Of a stretch of 41,230 nucleotides of DNA, positions 1,833-39,871 are shown piece after piece. The stretch's first letter is position 1. Each line of letters begins with the position of its first letter. Under the pieces are notes generated by a model. That model had not been told where the DNA came from. It saw only the letters and a program-made list of their open reading frames with translations, and made no database searches. The position numbers were made by a program, and so were the translations under genes. Location: assembly GCA_024687185.1 (NCBI GenBank), contig JAILEX010000004.1:1-41230 (forward strand), read 5' to 3'. The stretch is from Bacilli bacterium. Its GTDB lineage: Bacteria > Bacillota_I > Bacilli_A > RFN20 > CAG-826.

Positions 1833-3320
1833 TTATGAAGTGTAACTTCCTACCAAATAGGAGTTGCTTGAATCGGCGTTAGTGAGGTCATAGGTATGGC
1901 CGCTTTTGAAGCTAGAGGTAAGCAAATCCGCGCTTTGCGGACCATCGCTTCCTTTGGTGAATAAGACGTTTGGGTAGGTGGCGGCGTCTAGGGTCAAGGA
2001 GAAGGTGCCATTACCGTCCATCTTCTTTCCAGGCCAGGGTTCCAAGGCCTTATTGGTTTCTAGATTCCAGGCATAGCAATAGCAATTTTGCCAACTGGTT
2101 TTGACCTTCATGGTTATGCTTTCGCTAGAGTTAGTGGAAAGCAATTTGCCTACGTCCACCCTGCCTTTGCCGCAATTGGAGGAAGAGACCTTGCTCGAGG
2201 TCGTTATGGCATGGCAACTCGCATAGAGGTCGCTTTCGAATTTATCGACGCTGGCATTTGGGTATTTTTCAAAATATAGTGCGGCCATCCCAGCCACCTG
2301 GGGAGAGGCAAAGGAAGTCCCCTTCCAGCCGCTATCATAGGTCTTGCCGTCATAATGGCAGCAACCGAACATATCTTCGGCGGGGGCGAAGACGTCGCAG
2401 AATTCATGATCGGGAGAGGAATTGTAAGAAGAGCCGCTCCAAATCTCCCCTGAGCTATTAGCGGCTAGGCCACCTACCCCAATCACGCCAGGGGTGGCGC
2501 CAGGCCAGGTATATTCGTTTGGCATATTGTCCAATCCGCCATTGCCGCCTGCGGAAATAACGACGGTCCCATGTTCCCTGCAGTATGAAATAGCGTTATT
2601 GAAAACATTCGATAAATCCGAGCCATCGTCAACCAAATCGCCTTTGTAGTTATAATAGGAACCAATGGAAATCGTGATGACCTTTGCCCCTTTTTCGACG
2701 GCGTAATAAAACGCCTTCTCGATCGATTTGGGTTTGCAATCCGTCTTTAACAATAATAATGACGCGTCGGGCGCGACGCCCGCGACGCCTTTTTTATTGA
2801 TGGCGGCCGCGGCCACGCCCGCGCAGAAGGTCCCATGGCTATTGCCGAGGTCTTTTACGGATTCTAAACCAACCGAGGTCTTAACTAGGCCATCCCCATA
2901 TTCAAAGGAAGCCGAGGTAGCTAGGACTTTGCTACTACCGTCTTCATAATAGAAATCCTCATGATAGGGATTAAAGCCCGAATCGATGACGGCGATGGTG
3001 ACCCCATCCCCGCGATAAGTATCCCAGGTCGAATAGATGTCCCCGATATGGTTTAGGTAATATTGCCTACCGATATAGGGCTCATCCATCGGATTTAGGC
3101 GTTCTTTTTTCTCCTCGCTACTTATTGAAGCACTAGAGGAAAGGGACGAAGATTCCTCTTCGCCACTATTTTCGTCGCTACTAGATTCCTCGCTAACGGA
3201 AGTGACTTCCATGGCGCTACTAGATTCCTCGCTAGTAGTTACGCTAACGCTAGAAGAGGCGCTAGGAGAAGAACACGCGCAAAGAGATAAGGCAAGTAAA
3301 AGCAATGGCAAGGGTTTCAT
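1833..3320 (-). CDS. Subtilisin-like (S8) serine protease lipoprotein with Ser/Glu-rich linker and C-terminal CBM26-like module
   Basis: Lipobox LSLCAC; catalytic motifs VTIAVIDSG (Asp), NSHGTFCAGVAAA (His), GTSFASPQVAG (Ser); C-term resembles starch-binding module 26 (WNLETNKALEPWPGKKM...LFTKGSDGPQSADL). ORF track starts at 3338; MKPLPLLLL at 3320 is the more likely start. Confidence 0.9.
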   Translation of the reverse strand: MKPLPLLLLALSLCACSSPSASSSVSVTTSEESSSAMEVTSVSEESSSDENSGEEESSSLSSSASISSEEKKERLNPMDEPYIGRQYYLNHIGDIYSTWDTYRGDGVTIAVIDSGFNPYHEDFYYEDGSSKVLATSASFEYGDGLVKTSVGLESVKDLGNSHGTFCAGVAAAAINKKGVAGVAPDASLLLLKTDCKPKSIEKAFYYAVEKGAKVITISIGSYYNYKGDLVDDGSDLSNVFNNAISYCREHGTVVISAGGNGGLDNMPNEYTWPGATPGVIGVGGLAANSSGEIWSGSSYNSSPDHEFCDVFAPAEDMFGCCHYDGKTYDSGWKGTSFASPQVAGMAALYFEKYPNASVDKFESDLYASCHAITTSSKVSSSNCGKGRVDVGKLLSTNSSESITMKVKTSWQNCYCYAWNLETNKALEPWPGKKMDGNGTFSLTLDAATYPNVLFTKGSDGPQSADLLTSSFKSGHTYDLTNADSSNSYLVGSYTS

Positions 3321-3363
3321 GGAAATATGGTAGACCATCTTCGTCCATTTACAAAATAGAAAA

Positions 3364-32442: not shown

Positions 32443-32769
32443 ATGAGAATAAGCGACGCCATCACCATCACCGAACTCTCGAGGCTATTGAAGAAATCGA
32501 GACCGACCGTCTATAAGTACATCTCCGACTTCGAATCCGGGGATGAGCTTGCCGTGCCCCAGGCAGTGTGCGATCTCTTCCACCTAATCATCGACTCGGA
32601 GATCTCCAAGGCCGAAATCACAAGATACTGCAAAAAGCGCTTTGGGGAACCTGACATCTCCATCTCCGAGCAATGCCAGGACATCATCGAACTATTGAAA
32701 CGCTACGAGAAAAGAATCGACCTCGACCGCATTGAAAAGATCATCAGAAAGGAAATCGAAAGACTATGA
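32443..32769 (+). CDS. Hypothetical protein with putative N-terminal helix-turn-helix
   Basis: AITITELSRLLKKSRPTVYKYISDFESG resembles HTH; SD AAAGGAGG; ATGA coupling to next gene. Confidence 0.75.
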   Translation: MRISDAITITELSRLLKKSRPTVYKYISDFESGDELAVPQAVCDLFHLIIDSEISKAEITRYCKKRFGEPDISISEQCQDIIELLKRYEKRIDLDRIEKIIRKEIERL

Positions 32770-33833
32770 ACCAAAAACGCCGTTCCGCTTTGGAAAGAGA
32801 TATCGTCACCTCGCTTAGGAGATACCGTCTCCAAGAGGAAATCCGCATCATAGAAGAAGAGAAGGCAGCCACCGCAGCCACTTCTGAGAAAGAAACCAAG
32901 AAGGGCTTTGTCCAAACCGTCAAAAGCATGCTGAAGCAAGACGTAAGGGACATCAAAAGCAAAGTGACCGGCGACGACCTCCCCAAGGCCAAAAAGAACC
33001 TTGAGGACTTCGAAGCTAGCGTTGAAGATCCTTCAAGCACCGATTACACAACCGACATCGAAGACTTCAAAAGGATATTGGACGTCTATTTCGACCGCGA
33101 TGGCGGTAGCGCAAGGCTAAGCATGGCCTTAGAGCTTGGATTCGATGAATTCGATCAGGAAAAACCCAAGTTCCTACGCACCGATAAATCCCGCGAATCC
33201 TTGTCCTCACTACTTCTAGGCGATCCCAAGAAACTCGGCGAGATGCTGGCCTTCTATTCCTATTCCTACCGTCAAATCGGCGCCCCAAAGGCCAATACCT
33301 TCTCCAAAGGGTTCCTTATCGGGCTTACCGCCGGTAGCCTAGCGATGTTTGGAATCCCCCTATTCCTATTCGGCGCCTTCCGCTCGAAAGCCGCGATGGC
33401 CGCGGCCGGGGGAGTTGCCGCGGTTGGGGCGAGCGAACTGCTCCTATTCTCCACCCTCGTTGGCAGCGGCTTCATCAAAAAGAACAAATATAAGAGGAAG
33501 TCCGTGCGTCACGTGAAAGCCATGGCGAAGAATTGCCTCGACACCGAGATCGCCTGCTCCATCGCCACCGCTTTGACCCTATATGAATTCTCCGCCAAGG
33601 AAGACGAAGAGAAGGCGAAGGAAACGCTGGATCTATTGATCAAAATGGTCGATGACATCCGCGCCGACGCCGAATTTATGGGGTTGGTCGAACGCGTCAA
33701 CACAAAGGAAAACCTCAAGAAGATTGTCGTTTGCGATAACGCCATCAACCATATCGGCAAATTGATCCTTGGGGAAGCCATCACCTCGACAAAAGGCGAA
33801 GAATCCCCAAAAGATGCGACCACATCTATATAA
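32766..33833 (+). CDS. Hypothetical protein with central glycine-rich double transmembrane region
   Basis: FLIGLTAGSLAMFGIPLFLFGAF and AAMAAAGGVAAVGASELLLFSTLVGSGFI flanked by charged helical regions; ATGA overlap with 32443 CDS. Confidence 0.8.
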   Translation: MNQKRRSALERDIVTSLRRYRLQEEIRIIEEEKAATAATSEKETKKGFVQTVKSMLKQDVRDIKSKVTGDDLPKAKKNLEDFEASVEDPSSTDYTTDIEDFKRILDVYFDRDGGSARLSMALELGFDEFDQEKPKFLRTDKSRESLSSLLLGDPKKLGEMLAFYSYSYRQIGAPKANTFSKGFLIGLTAGSLAMFGIPLFLFGAFRSKAAMAAAGGVAAVGASELLLFSTLVGSGFIKKNKYKRKSVRHVKAMAKNCLDTEIACSIATALTLYEFSAKEDEEKAKETLDLLIKMVDDIRADAEFMGLVERVNTKENLKKIVVCDNAINHIGKLILGEAITSTKGEESPKDATTSI

Positions 33834-33854: not shown

Positions 33855-33882
33855 AAAGGGAGGTTTTATAAAGCCTCTCTTT
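33855..33882 (+). terminator. Stem-loop downstream of 33833 (possible terminator)
   Basis: AAAGGGAGG-ttttataaag-CCTCTCTTT (9 bp with one G-U); poor U-run. Confidence 0.5.
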
Positions 33883-33927: not shown

Positions 33928-33964
33928 CCCAAATAAGCGATCCAAAACGAAGGAGGATTACACA

Positions 33965-36781
33965 ATGGGCGAATTAACAGACAGGCAAACTCAGAAATAT
34001 ATCCGCAGGGGCAGAGGCAGAGGTTGGAAGAACCTCCTCTGGTGGCTATTCGGCTTCCTAACCCCGCTTATCCTAATCGGAACCGCGGCGGCGGTCGCCG
34101 TGTTCGCGATCCCCGTTTCCACCTATACCGGCGGCAACGAATTCTTCATCCCCGAAATCGCAAACGGCACCATTTTCAACTTCGTTCAGAACTATACCAA
34201 ATACACCGTCGCCGACCTCCCGATCGTCGAAAAGTTGCTCAGGCAATACGTCGATGAGGGCGAGCTAAACAAATACATCGAACTCAATTACGATAACATC
34301 AACGGCATCAAGCTCGATGGCTCCACCTTCGACGACAAGGACTTCGACATCAATAACTATGTCACCGTCACCGCTTCCATCAGAAGCCTAGGATTCGAAA
34401 ACGAAATGGGCGACTTCGGCAAACTTAGCGCCTTCTCCTCCTGGGATGAGGTAACCGAAGAAGTCGATACCTCCGCCAGCAACTTCGATCCCAAACTATA
34501 TTATTATAAGGTTAATACCGCTAGCTCGAGCTCCAAGGTAAAGTGCAAGCCGATCACCGATCCTTCCGGCAACACCTATGCCAGGGCCTTCAACGACGAT
34601 AAGTCGAAGGTCGAAGGCGCGACCTTGCCCTACTATTACCCCGCGCTATTCGATTTGCCCATTTTCGACATGACCAACGTCATCGGCAACCGCGTCGGTA
34701 CCTCCAAAGCCGTCTCGTTGCTTAATATGTTCGGCATCGAATCCACCTCGATGTTAGGCAAAATCGTCGGCGATAGGACCGTTACCGGGCTTAGCACCCT
34801 TTCCACCAAGGACATCAAGTTGTCCGTGATCATGGACCTAAGCCAGAACGCAAAGCTTAGCAGCATCCTCACCTCCGTCACCGGAGTGGAAAAGGCCAAT
34901 GACATCACCCTAGCCGACATGGAGAAGGAATGGAACACCTCCGCCATCAAGCTAAGCACCGTCATGGACTTCAGCCAAAACGAAAAGCTTACGGCCATCC
35001 TCACCGACCTCACCGGGGCAAGCGACGTAAACGAAATCACCCTAGGCGACCTAGAATCCGACCTAAATACCGATAACATCCGCCTTGAGACCTTCCTCCC
35101 CGAGGCGCAAAACCAAAGCCTATACGACATCATCCGTTCGGCCCAAAACCTAGAACCCGGCTCCGTCATCAGGATCGGCAGCCTCAATGGTATCAACACC
35201 GATAACATCAAGATGACCGTTGTCATCCCCTATGACACCGATAGCACCGACCTCTACCGCATCCTCTCCTCTTGCTGCAGAGACGAAAACGGCGACCCGA
35301 TCGCACCGGAAAACATCACCGTCAGGGATGTCCACAAGATGCAATCCGACAAAGCGCGTCTAGCCGACCTACTCAAAAACACGACCGCGGATAGCCAAAT
35401 CGCCAAGATCCTCGCCTCCGCCTGCAATAAGAGCTATGAGGCATTGACCGTCGGCGACCTTTCGAGCTTCAATGCCCAAAACATCAAGATCAAGGATATC
35501 GGCACCATCGATGATTCGACCTTCAATATCCTCGCCCAAGGCTCTGGATTCACCGGCGATAAAGAGAACCTAACCGTTGGCGCCATCGAAACCTTCAACA
35601 TCAAAAACGTCTATATCACCAACGTCATCGGCCAAACCACCGAAAACGAAAAGCTCTACACGATCCTAGAAAGCACCCTAGGCGTCACCAGGGCCAACAT
35701 GAAGGTAAGCGACCTCGATAACTTCAACATCAATAACTGCAAACTCTCGACCATCCTCTCCACCACCAATAACGAAACCCTATTCAGCATCCTCAACGAT
35801 GCCACTGGCAAAGATCAAGACACCATCACCGTCGGCGACCTAGATTCCGGCATCAACTTCGATAACGTCAAACTCACTTCCCTATTGCCCTATGCCGGCA
35901 ACGAGAAGATGTATGACATCCTGGTCGAATGCACCTCCGCCACAAGCTATACCGAAGTCACCATCGATAGCCTTAAGGCGTTTAGCACCGGCGACTTGCA
36001 CCTTTCCACCATCGTCGATTACACCGGCAACGAGAAGATGTATGACATCTTGGTCGAGTGCACCCCCGCCACAAACTATAGCGAAGTCACCGTCAGCAGC
36101 CTTTCTAGCTTCAGCACGGATAACCTCCATTTGTGCAAGGTCCTCGATCCCGCCACCAACGGCCCCCTATACGACATCCTCAGGGAAGGTTTGGGCGCCG
36201 CGGATAACGAAAGCATCAAGATGAGCGATTTCAGCAGCTTCGATATCACCACCGTCAGCCTAAAGACCGTCCTAACCGACAAAAACGGCAACGCCATCGT
36301 CACCGGCAACGCCATCTTGGATAAGCTACGCGAAGACGAAACCGTCACCATTGGCAACATCGGCACCAAATTCGATGAAATCGAGCTCTACGAAGCCTAT
36401 GGCGCGGATGTCTTCACCACCGATAGTTCCCTCTCCGTCAGGAAAGATAAGTATAGAAGGGAACAGCAAAGCGACGGCTATCACTATATCCTAGACGCCT
36501 CTGGCACCTACTATGTCTCAAAGAACGCCAACACCTGGCTCCTATTCTGCTATGACGTCGTTAGCGTCAACGGTTCTAACGGCTGCCCCACCGAATATAA
36601 GCCCTCGACCGCCAATTTCGGCAACCTAGCCGATGGTAACCTCAGCACCAAGATCACCGCCACCACGATCTATAACCTCATCGCCGGCGGCATCATCAGC
36701 GAAGGCGGAACCCCCTATAAGGATGCCGTCACCGCCATGACCATCGACGCCGTCATCGCCGCGATCAACGCAGTGTCTTGA
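33965..36781 (+). CDS. Membrane-anchored protein with about 12 tandem ~43-aa repeats
   Basis: N-terminal basic segment plus TM (NLLWWLFGFLTPLILIGTAAAVAVFAIPV); repeats of form N..NIkLstil....NeklydIL........iTvgDL.sF; SD AAGGAGG. Confidence 0.92.
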   Translation: MGELTDRQTQKYIRRGRGRGWKNLLWWLFGFLTPLILIGTAAAVAVFAIPVSTYTGGNEFFIPEIANGTIFNFVQNYTKYTVADLPIVEKLLRQYVDEGELNKYIELNYDNINGIKLDGSTFDDKDFDINNYVTVTASIRSLGFENEMGDFGKLSAFSSWDEVTEEVDTSASNFDPKLYYYKVNTASSSSKVKCKPITDPSGNTYARAFNDDKSKVEGATLPYYYPALFDLPIFDMTNVIGNRVGTSKAVSLLNMFGIESTSMLGKIVGDRTVTGLSTLSTKDIKLSVIMDLSQNAKLSSILTSVTGVEKANDITLADMEKEWNTSAIKLSTVMDFSQNEKLTAILTDLTGASDVNEITLGDLESDLNTDNIRLETFLPEAQNQSLYDIIRSAQNLEPGSVIRIGSLNGINTDNIKMTVVIPYDTDSTDLYRILSSCCRDENGDPIAPENITVRDVHKMQSDKARLADLLKNTTADSQIAKILASACNKSYEALTVGDLSSFNAQNIKIKDIGTIDDSTFNILAQGSGFTGDKENLTVGAIETFNIKNVYITNVIGQTTENEKLYTILESTLGVTRANMKVSDLDNFNINNCKLSTILSTTNNETLFSILNDATGKDQDTITVGDLDSGINFDNVKLTSLLPYAGNEKMYDILVECTSATSYTEVTIDSLKAFSTGDLHLSTIVDYTGNEKMYDILVECTPATNYSEVTVSSLSSFSTDNLHLCKVLDPATNGPLYDILREGLGAADNESIKMSDFSSFDITTVSLKTVLTDKNGNAIVTGNAILDKLREDETVTIGNIGTKFDEIELYEAYGADVFTTDSSLSVRKDKYRREQQSDGYHYILDASGTYYVSKNANTWLLFCYDVVSVNGSNGCPTEYKPSTANFGNLADGNLSTKITATTIYNLIAGGIISEGGTPYKDAVTAMTIDAVIAAINAVS

Positions 36782-37525: not shown

Positions 37526-39871
37526 TTAGGAGACTTTGCTAACGCTAGAAAGACTTCCATAGTCGCTATAGGCGGTGCATCCGCTGAAGGAGGCTCCGCT
37601 ATAGAGCTTGCCAGTGGTGACGGTGCCGTTAGCGAAGGTTAGAGTATAGGCATATCCGCCGCTATAGGTGCCGCTTTTGCTGGATTTGGTGACGCCGCTA
37701 TAGGAGACGTTCCCATATCCGAAGACCGCGAGGGTACCGCCTTTTACGGAGACCGTGTTATCGGCGTCGATCGCCGCCATGTTCTCAGAATTGGGGCCGC
37801 TAGCAACAACGATACCCGCCGTCTGAGTATAATAGCCATTACTGTCAATACAATCAGTATCTCCGCTAGTGGGGACAGAAGCGAATAGATAGCCGCCGGT
37901 GACATTGATATTGGGAGTCTTTGCAGGGCCGCTACTTCCGGCGTTGACCGCATCGTCGGTAGCATAGACATAGCTTTCGCCACCGCTTATTGCAATCTGG
38001 TTGCCTTCTAATGCCTCATAGGATTCGGAGACGTTTATGGTGCCACCGGAGATATTGAGGTTATAGTCGGCATGGATGCCATCGTCTTTGGAAACCACGT
38101 CGATTGTGCCACCGGAGATATAGACGTTGCCTACGCCGGTTTCGCCATTATCCAAGACATCGCCATAATTGGCATGGATACCATCGTCGGCTGCTTCGAT
38201 ATCGATGGTGCCACCAGAGACATAGATCTCATTGGCGGCCTTGATGCCCTTAGCGGAGACATCGCTACTTTCGGAGGTGGAGCTGCTTCCGCTGCCGCCA
38301 GGACCCCAACCGCCGCTAGATTGAGCGCTATAGGTGGTCCAGCCCGAGGTGGAGATGGAAGATCCGCTTAACGAGAAGGTGACGGTGTCGTAGTTGGTGT
38401 TGATGGTGTCGCCGCTACTGCAAGCCACATAGGTGGACGTACTATCCTCGCTTTGGCTGGAAGAGAAGGCATAGATTTTGAAGTTGCCATAATTGCTAGG
38501 ACGGTCAAGGTCATAGTAATAATAGGTAGAACTTCCGCCCATTCCCCTGCCGCCGCTGCTCATTGAGGTCAAATAATCGGCATCGGACCAGGAATAGTTG
38601 CCATCGTTATCGTAGAAATAGACGGCATAGCGGTAGGAAGAGTAATTGCTCGTGGTACGTAGATACATCGTCTCGGTCGAACTTTCGATTACGTCACCCG
38701 TATAAGAGGAATAGCTATTGGTCTTCATATTGACCGTGCCACCCTGGATATCAACATTATAGGCCGCGTCGATTGCGTCGCAGGCGGCATAGATATCGAC
38801 GGTGCCATCTATGATCGTAACGGTACCCCTTTGCTTTGAGGTGGAACTAGAGATATCGCTATCGCTTGTCTTGATGCCATCTCCGCCGGTAGAAATAACC
38901 GTTAAGGTACCGGATTTGATTTCGACGGAGTCATTGCCTTTGAGTGCATTGTTGGGGGCGGTGACCTTTAGGGTCTGTTTTTGGATGGTTAGGTCCTTTG
39001 TGGAGTGAACGCCGTTATTGTAGGTGCCGGTAACCGTTAATTCGCCAGTCCCCTTAAGCTTAAGGTCGCACTTGGAATAGATCGCACCATTACCCTGAGT
39101 ATCATCCTCAGTTGATTCTAAATCACGTAAATCGGTAACCGTGTTGGTGGTTCCGCTTTTTGCCGAGATATCGACGCCGTCGGCATTGGAAATATATATC
39201 GGGGAGTTCTCGCCATAGGAGATATTGACCCCATTCAAATCGATTTCAACGGAGTCCTCATCACCTGCTTCTACAACGATTTGGGCCTCTTTGGTGCCGG
39301 TGACGGTATAGGTTCCGGCGCTAAGAAGGGTATAGACATTATCGACGATGGTCATGGAACCATCGGTGGTGGAGCAGAAGTCGTCGCCAAGGGTGGTTTC
39401 AACAGAACTCGATTCTTCGCTAGTATCTTCAGAGGAATCCTCACTTGTTTCTTCGGAGGATTCTTCGCTGGAAGAGGATTCTTCGCTACTTTCTTCTTCC
39501 GAACTGCTTTCTATGCTTGTAGACTCGCTGCTACTTTCCTCTTCGGAACTGCTTTCTTTAGAAGAGGATTCGGAGGAGGATTCCGAGCTTTCTTCGCTAT
39601 CCGAAGAGCTAGATTCCTCATCGCTACTAGACGAATGGGAATGGTGACCTCCCTTAGAGGAAGATTCATCGCTACTTTCCTCGTCGCTGCTTTCTTCTGC
39701 TGAGCTAGAGGTTGCGGCGCTACTGGAATCCCCATCGGTAGACGAGGCTACGGTAGCGGAAGTTTCGGTTTCGCTAGAAGAAGCCGTCGTAGACGAATCA
39801 GCGGTTTTCGCCCCGCAGCTAGCCATTGTCACGGCAGCCAGGGAGAGAACCAATAAACGTAATTTTTTCAT
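37526..39871 (-). CDS. Carbohydrate-binding (DUF4353/Cthe_2159-like) beta-helix lipoprotein with long Ser/Glu-rich stalk
   Basis: Lipobox VTMASC; about 130-aa Ser/Glu-rich tract; repeated DGIKTSDSD / DDGIHANYGD / DDGIHADYNLNISGGTINVSESYEALEGNQIAISGG motifs typical of that family. Confidence 0.85.
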   Translation of the reverse strand: MKKLRLLVLSLAAVTMASCGAKTADSSTTASSSETETSATVASSTDGDSSSAATSSSAEESSDEESSDESSSKGGHHSHSSSSDEESSSSDSEESSESSSESSSKESSSEEESSSESTSIESSSEEESSEESSSSEESSEETSEDSSEDTSEESSSVETTLGDDFCSTTDGSMTIVDNVYTLLSAGTYTVTGTKEAQIVVEAGDEDSVEIDLNGVNISYGENSPIYISNADGVDISAKSGTTNTVTDLRDLESTEDDTQGNGAIYSKCDLKLKGTGELTVTGTYNNGVHSTKDLTIQKQTLKVTAPNNALKGNDSVEIKSGTLTVISTGGDGIKTSDSDISSSTSKQRGTVTIIDGTVDIYAACDAIDAAYNVDIQGGTVNMKTNSYSSYTGDVIESSTETMYLRTTSNYSSYRYAVYFYDNDGNYSWSDADYLTSMSSGGRGMGGSSTYYYYDLDRPSNYGNFKIYAFSSSQSEDSTSTYVACSSGDTINTNYDTVTFSLSGSSISTSGWTTYSAQSSGGWGPGGSGSSSTSESSDVSAKGIKAANEIYVSGGTIDIEAADDGIHANYGDVLDNGETGVGNVYISGGTIDVVSKDDGIHADYNLNISGGTINVSESYEALEGNQIAISGGESYVYATDDAVNAGSSGPAKTPNINVTGGYLFASVPTSGDTDCIDSNGYYTQTAGIVVASGPNSENMAAIDADNTVSVKGGTLAVFGYGNVSYSGVTKSSKSGTYSGGYAYTLTFANGTVTTGKLYSGASFSGCTAYSDYGSLSSVSKVS

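Follow-up and report, generated by a model that had tools for sequence, protein, structure and literature searches.

The window, that is, the whole analyzed stretch of 41,230 nt from a member of the Bacilli, contains a gene for a repeat protein whose coordinates and length had been given correctly in the original prediction (Table 1). From the N-terminus, the product consists of a basic segment and a single transmembrane (TM) helix, an N-terminal ectodomain, a repeat array and a C-terminal cap. In the window and at the homologous loci L031 and L032, the gene has as neighbors a flippase-like gene and a glycosyltransferase gene on the opposite strand, and a flavin-reductase gene lies downstream. 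In the window, the flippase-like gene and the repeat gene are separated by a two-gene cassette (32443–33833, + strand) that L031 and L032 lack at the syntenic position. The cassette encodes a 108-aa HTH protein and a 355-aa protein with hydrophobic stretches, which gave no family match above cut-off.

Table 1. Features of the repeat-protein gene and its upstream region (window coordinates).
Feature	Position	Strand	Basis
Hairpin and T-run, which probably terminate the upstream two-gene cassette	33856–33881	+	Sequence read by eye, inferred
Ribosome binding site aaggagg, 8 nt 5' of ATG	33950–33956	+	Sequence
Repeat-protein ORF, 938 aa	33965–36781	+	Homologues; pN/pS of L042 vs. L043 homologues 0.02–0.12
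Basic cytoplasmic N-terminus, residues 1–18	33965–34018	+	Charge bias across TM, 36/38 homologues
Single TM helix, residues 19–47	34019–34105	+	AlphaFold2 helix 19–47 (low confidence there); hydropathy
N-terminal ectodomain, residues 48–280	34106–34804	+	Family conservation
Unit 1, residues 281–324	34805–34936	+	Unit profile
Unit 2, residues 325–368; 55% identical to unit 1	34937–35068	+	Unit profile
Unit 3, residues 369–411	35069–35197	+	Unit profile
Unit 4, residues 412–460	35198–35344	+	Unit profile
Unit 5, residues 461–503	35345–35473	+	Unit profile
Unit 6, residues 504–545; weakest unit	35474–35599	+	Unit profile
Unit 7, residues 546–588	35600–35728	+	Unit profile
Unit 8, residues 589–631	35729–35857	+	Unit profile
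Unit 9, residues 632–674; recent tandem partner of unit 10	35858–35986	+	91/129 nt identical
Unit 10, residues 675–717	35987–36115	+	Unit profile; DNA comparison with unit 9
Unit 11, residues 718–760	36116–36244	+	Unit profile
Unit 12, residues 761–804; unit type closest to divergent superfamily	36245–36376	+	Superfamily unit HMM
C-terminal cap, residues 805–938: beta hairpins and helices	36377–36778	+	AlphaFold2 C-terminal model; pN/pS

About 12 units had been predicted between positions 34793 and 36385. Using a unit profile refined on homologues, we obtained exactly 12 units of about 43 aa (42–49) that tile residues 281–804 without gaps, placing the repeat region at 34805–36376. The predicted unit motif was likewise recovered, with the consensus TDNIKLSTVLPYTEGNEDLYDILADATGKESYEDITIGDLSGFD. 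Residue autocorrelation peaked at a lag of 43 (0.156, compared to −0.33 for the best of 1000 shuffles). A unit HMM built exclusively from other genomes detected all 12 units with E-values between 2e-16 and 1.4e-4, and yielded no match on 200 shuffled copies. The copy pair reported at a spacing of 129 nt is real and corresponds to units 9 and 10, but its near-identity is confined to a core starting at 35899 (55 of 60 bases; 91 of 129 over the unit). A second pair, units 1 and 2, is similar at the amino acid level. Conserved unit positions are mostly buried-type hydrophobic residues, helix caps and a turn glycine.

The structure was predicted by AlphaFold2 from an alignment of 12 sequences, the window protein and those of related loci. 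The full model reached a mean pLDDT of 79.2 and a pTM of 0.35, the model of residues 632–938 a pLDDT of 91.2 and a pTM of 0.70. Each unit is predicted to comprise one helix of 10–11 residues and two short HHH-E-HHHH motifs, and the array as a whole is predicted to be well ordered and mostly helical. In the predicted cap, beta hairpins are followed by helices. With respect to topology, 36 of 38 homologues carry more positive charge on the N-terminal than on the C-terminal side of the TM helix, and hydropathy analysis revealed no further TM-like window in any of the 38. This single N-terminal TM with its positive-inside bias represents the cell-surface anchor, and it lends indirect support to the surface location that had been proposed. 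The ectodomain is acidic (pI ~4.4). Cysteine accounts for 1.3% of the residues in the repeats, which is on the high side for a Bacillota protein that is exposed and was also seen in other probable exported proteins of the window.

Scans of the window protein against Pfam, NCBIfam and PHROGs returned no family at cut-off or with a convincing E-value. Pfam gave no match for 12 aligned family members and none above cut-off for six relatives; domains typical of the stalks or adhesive regions of fibrillar adhesins were missing from all of these Pfam scans. Among PDB sequences, the window protein had no match, and nothing significant was found with the family, C-terminal or unit profiles. Foldseek searches yielded best E-values of 0.83 and 1.9 against PDB, with nothing at E≤0.001, and of 1.1 against the viral BFVD. 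Literature searches retrieved no description of the repeat. Within these resources, the results support the original view of an undescribed repeat family. A role as phage or plasmid cargo was rejected, as PHROGs and tblastn searches against phage and plasmid records gave no relatives.

A contig scan with the single window protein as query produced no match, and a 12-row alignment proved too diverse to yield patterns, while a 4-row alignment gave a working homologue search. From relatives, we extracted 11 homologous ORFs. In the genus, 16 of the 31 genomes contain a homologue, including 10 of the 13 near-complete ones (the gene is absent from the other three), and a sister genus has homologues as well; one of the 16 matches, in G122, is weak and belongs to a divergent group described below. 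Named records with homologues derive from uncultured Erysipelotrichaceae, including RUG-series isolates, and from several MAGs labelled Clostridia, Clostridiales or Firmicutes. The family is real and looks undescribed, and it appears to be kept vertically within lineages. In the Clostridia-labelled homologue L051 (270–3683) the gene is split into two ORFs, and the N-domain motif LYYY...RAFDD occurs about three times; at L046 (5680–8316) the cap is encoded on a separate downstream ORF, which points to a frameshift, an assembly error or a decayed gene.

The comparison of unit number among related genomes that had been suggested revealed complete copies with 3, 5, 6, 7, 9, 11, 12, 13 and 15 units. 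Four further members of the genus have 3 units, one of them being truncated on the 5' side where the contig ends. Since relatives carry 3 to 15 units, protein length looks to be set by gain or loss of units. In a tree of the non-repeat parts, the 12-unit window protein is placed beside the 15-unit pair L031 and L032, the 9- and 13-unit proteins pair with each other, and the 3- and 6-unit proteins form one group. As near kin on this tree differ in unit number, we concluded that it has changed repeatedly.

Weak cross-matches of the window-family profile led to ORFs of 529–1300 aa at loci L084–L102, which belong to genera g7, g22, g26, g28 and g35 and to G122. These members of a divergent superfamily share with the window family an alignable N-terminal TM domain, a single TM and a related unit, SKILKALKDKTIGDLSDTINSLKLSDVFD; the first ~125 residues of the N-terminal ectodomain, counted from the TM, are recognizable throughout. 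In contrast to the 43-aa units of the window family, their units measure only about 30–37 aa and contain more insertions, and the neighboring genes differ (in g22, surE – ORF – FBP aldolase). The repeats at L084–L102 are of a TIGDL type, with one copy of the gene per genome among the matches listed, and the superfamily members that were scanned have no Pfam or NCBIfam annotation. The N-terminal profile A4 matches 42 of the 196 genomes of the taxonomic family and 10 of its 35 genera, counts that include the members from which A4 was built and which necessarily match. No match fell outside this taxonomic family when class and phylum samples were searched, although Clostridia-labelled members may have been missed there. 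In several window-family proteins the superfamily unit HMM scores best on the last unit, and the terminal unit may therefore represent the older form of the unit. Unit 12 of the window protein shares 61% identity with the last unit of L031 and L032.

For the homologues at L042 and L043, pN/pS was 0.117 in the N-domain, 0.063 in the repeats and 0.016 in the cap, the last value resting on one species pair with a single non-synonymous change. These ratios indicate purifying selection on the protein, which in this pair seems strongest in the cap. In wider relatives, cap and N-domain are conserved about equally, and we therefore regard the cap signal as suggestive only. A diversifying surface antigen is not supported by pN/pS.

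The window genome possesses neither a transpeptidase (PF00905) nor a sortase. PF00905 is missing from 190 of the 196 genomes of the taxonomic family, and FtsW/RodA (PF01098) from all 31 genomes of the genus. Of 14 control genomes, 10 were positive for transpeptidase, 3 for sortase and 10 for FtsW/RodA. We regard the genus as probably wall-less, given that transpeptidases and FtsW/RodA are missing and that no sortase is present in the window genome. The organism is a rumen-type gut bacterium that seems to have lost its cell wall. As the genus is devoid of wall-synthesis markers, wall crossing cannot be the general role of the protein, and a peptidoglycan-spanning stalk was dropped as such. In another study, reduced expression of surface proteins was inferred from absent sortases (PMC10868615). 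Transpeptidases are present in six of the seven Clostridia- or Firmicutes-labelled genomes with homologues that were searched, and we therefore rejected a protein specific to wall-less cells. The gene neighbors shared by the window, L031 and L032 differ elsewhere in the genus, and in the Clostridia-labelled L046 and L047 the gene is located between a tRNA nucleotidyltransferase gene and rpsF-ssb-rpsR (assignments outside the window were read from the sequence). As no partner is common to the lineages, the genomic context does not reveal a function or a link to a pathway.

With about even confidence, we propose that the protein is an extracellular rod, anchored in the membrane and adjustable in length, that presents a conserved cap. 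The signal-anchor would hold the single-pass protein in the cell membrane and leave its C-terminus on the outside. Projecting from the surface, the 12 units would build an uninterrupted and mostly helical rod or superhelix, which would carry the cap at its far end. Duplication or loss of whole units would change the length while anchor, N-domain and cap are kept. This reading is based on the gapless units, their variable number, the helical model and the charge bias across the TM, and also on the order of the pN/pS values, the core-type conservation of the units and the acidic ectodomain. The stalk of the original prediction fits the variable unit number, but the rod shape itself is predicted, and the low pTM of the full-length model leaves the overall shape unfixed. 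Further points against the proposal are the varying gene neighbors, a cap constraint derived from one pair, the cysteine content and the three near-complete genomes without the gene.

Other functions have to be weighed against a cap-presenting rod. The original prediction also considered a binding array. In one form of such an array, every unit would bind the same ligand (a host or plant glycan, or another cell) and unit number would set avidity; the protein would then be a fibrillar adhesin in its function. Tandem units with a recent duplication, their variable number and the gut hosts named in record titles agree with such an array, as does the composition of fibrillar adhesins from a stalk, an adhesive region and an anchor (PMC9210967). 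The window family shares a surface anchor, a non-repeated region and a variable repeat number with Bacillota stalk proteins and fibrillar adhesins (PMC9210967, PMC8286594), and its repeats are predicted to form a rod as in those proteins. It differs from them, however, in its N-terminal membrane anchor without a sortase route, in its mostly helical units, in the purifying selection acting on its repeats and in lacking any Pfam domain known from stalks or adhesive regions. Furthermore, conservation within the units falls on hydrophobic, helix-cap and glycine positions, mostly of core type, without an obvious polar patch, and between the two close relatives it is the cap and not the repeats that is most constrained. 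We thus consider a binding array unlikely. Rods packed side by side could also form an envelope coat and thereby take the place, in part, of wall and S-layer. The missing wall-synthesis genes and sortase, with positive controls, favor such a coat, but the transpeptidases of the Clostridia- or Firmicutes-labelled genomes do not, and a single-copy gene that is missing from some near-complete genomes of the genus would be odd for a coat protein; this makes the coat improbable. Least probable of all appears a membrane-tethered spacer, chaperone or transport scaffold that would act close to the membrane on an exported protein or a lipid. Strong purifying selection and the occurrence in lineages with and without transpeptidases would suit it, but there is no conserved operon partner, and neither lipid-transfer bridges nor chaperones emerged as fold matches.

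A separate question, compatible with any of these functions, is whether the fold belongs to a known helical-repeat class but has diverged so far that the searches missed it. Solenoids of the HEAT, TPR, LRR and Sel1 classes consist of tandem units of 20–45 aa with a hydrophobic core, and the window family resembles them in both its tandem units and its core. The units are short and helical, the structure alignment held only 12 sequences, and the fold search covered PDB and BFVD, all of which leaves room for a missed relationship. However, no profile of these classes scored above cut-off, the Foldseek results against PDB contained no match to their folds, and the predicted unit combines one long with two short helical elements instead of a helix pair. 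Membership in a known class is therefore quite unlikely in our estimation. It is tempting to speculate, though we would not expect it, that a new repeat fold is involved and that length-adjustable rods partly replace wall-anchored surface proteins in Bacilli devoid of peptidoglycan and sortase. How wall-less gut Bacilli without sortases build their surface is a question for which this family, with a large, conserved, membrane-anchored ectodomain of adjustable unit number, provides a concrete candidate. If the fold is truly new, it would add a repeat class and a modular scaffold.

Two probable lipoproteins are encoded on the minus strand of the window. One, of 781 aa (37526–39871), carries a very Ser/Glu-rich N-terminal stretch followed by a Cthe_2159 carbohydrate-binding domain (PF14262), and the other (1833–3338) is a subtilase with a CBM26 starch-binding module.
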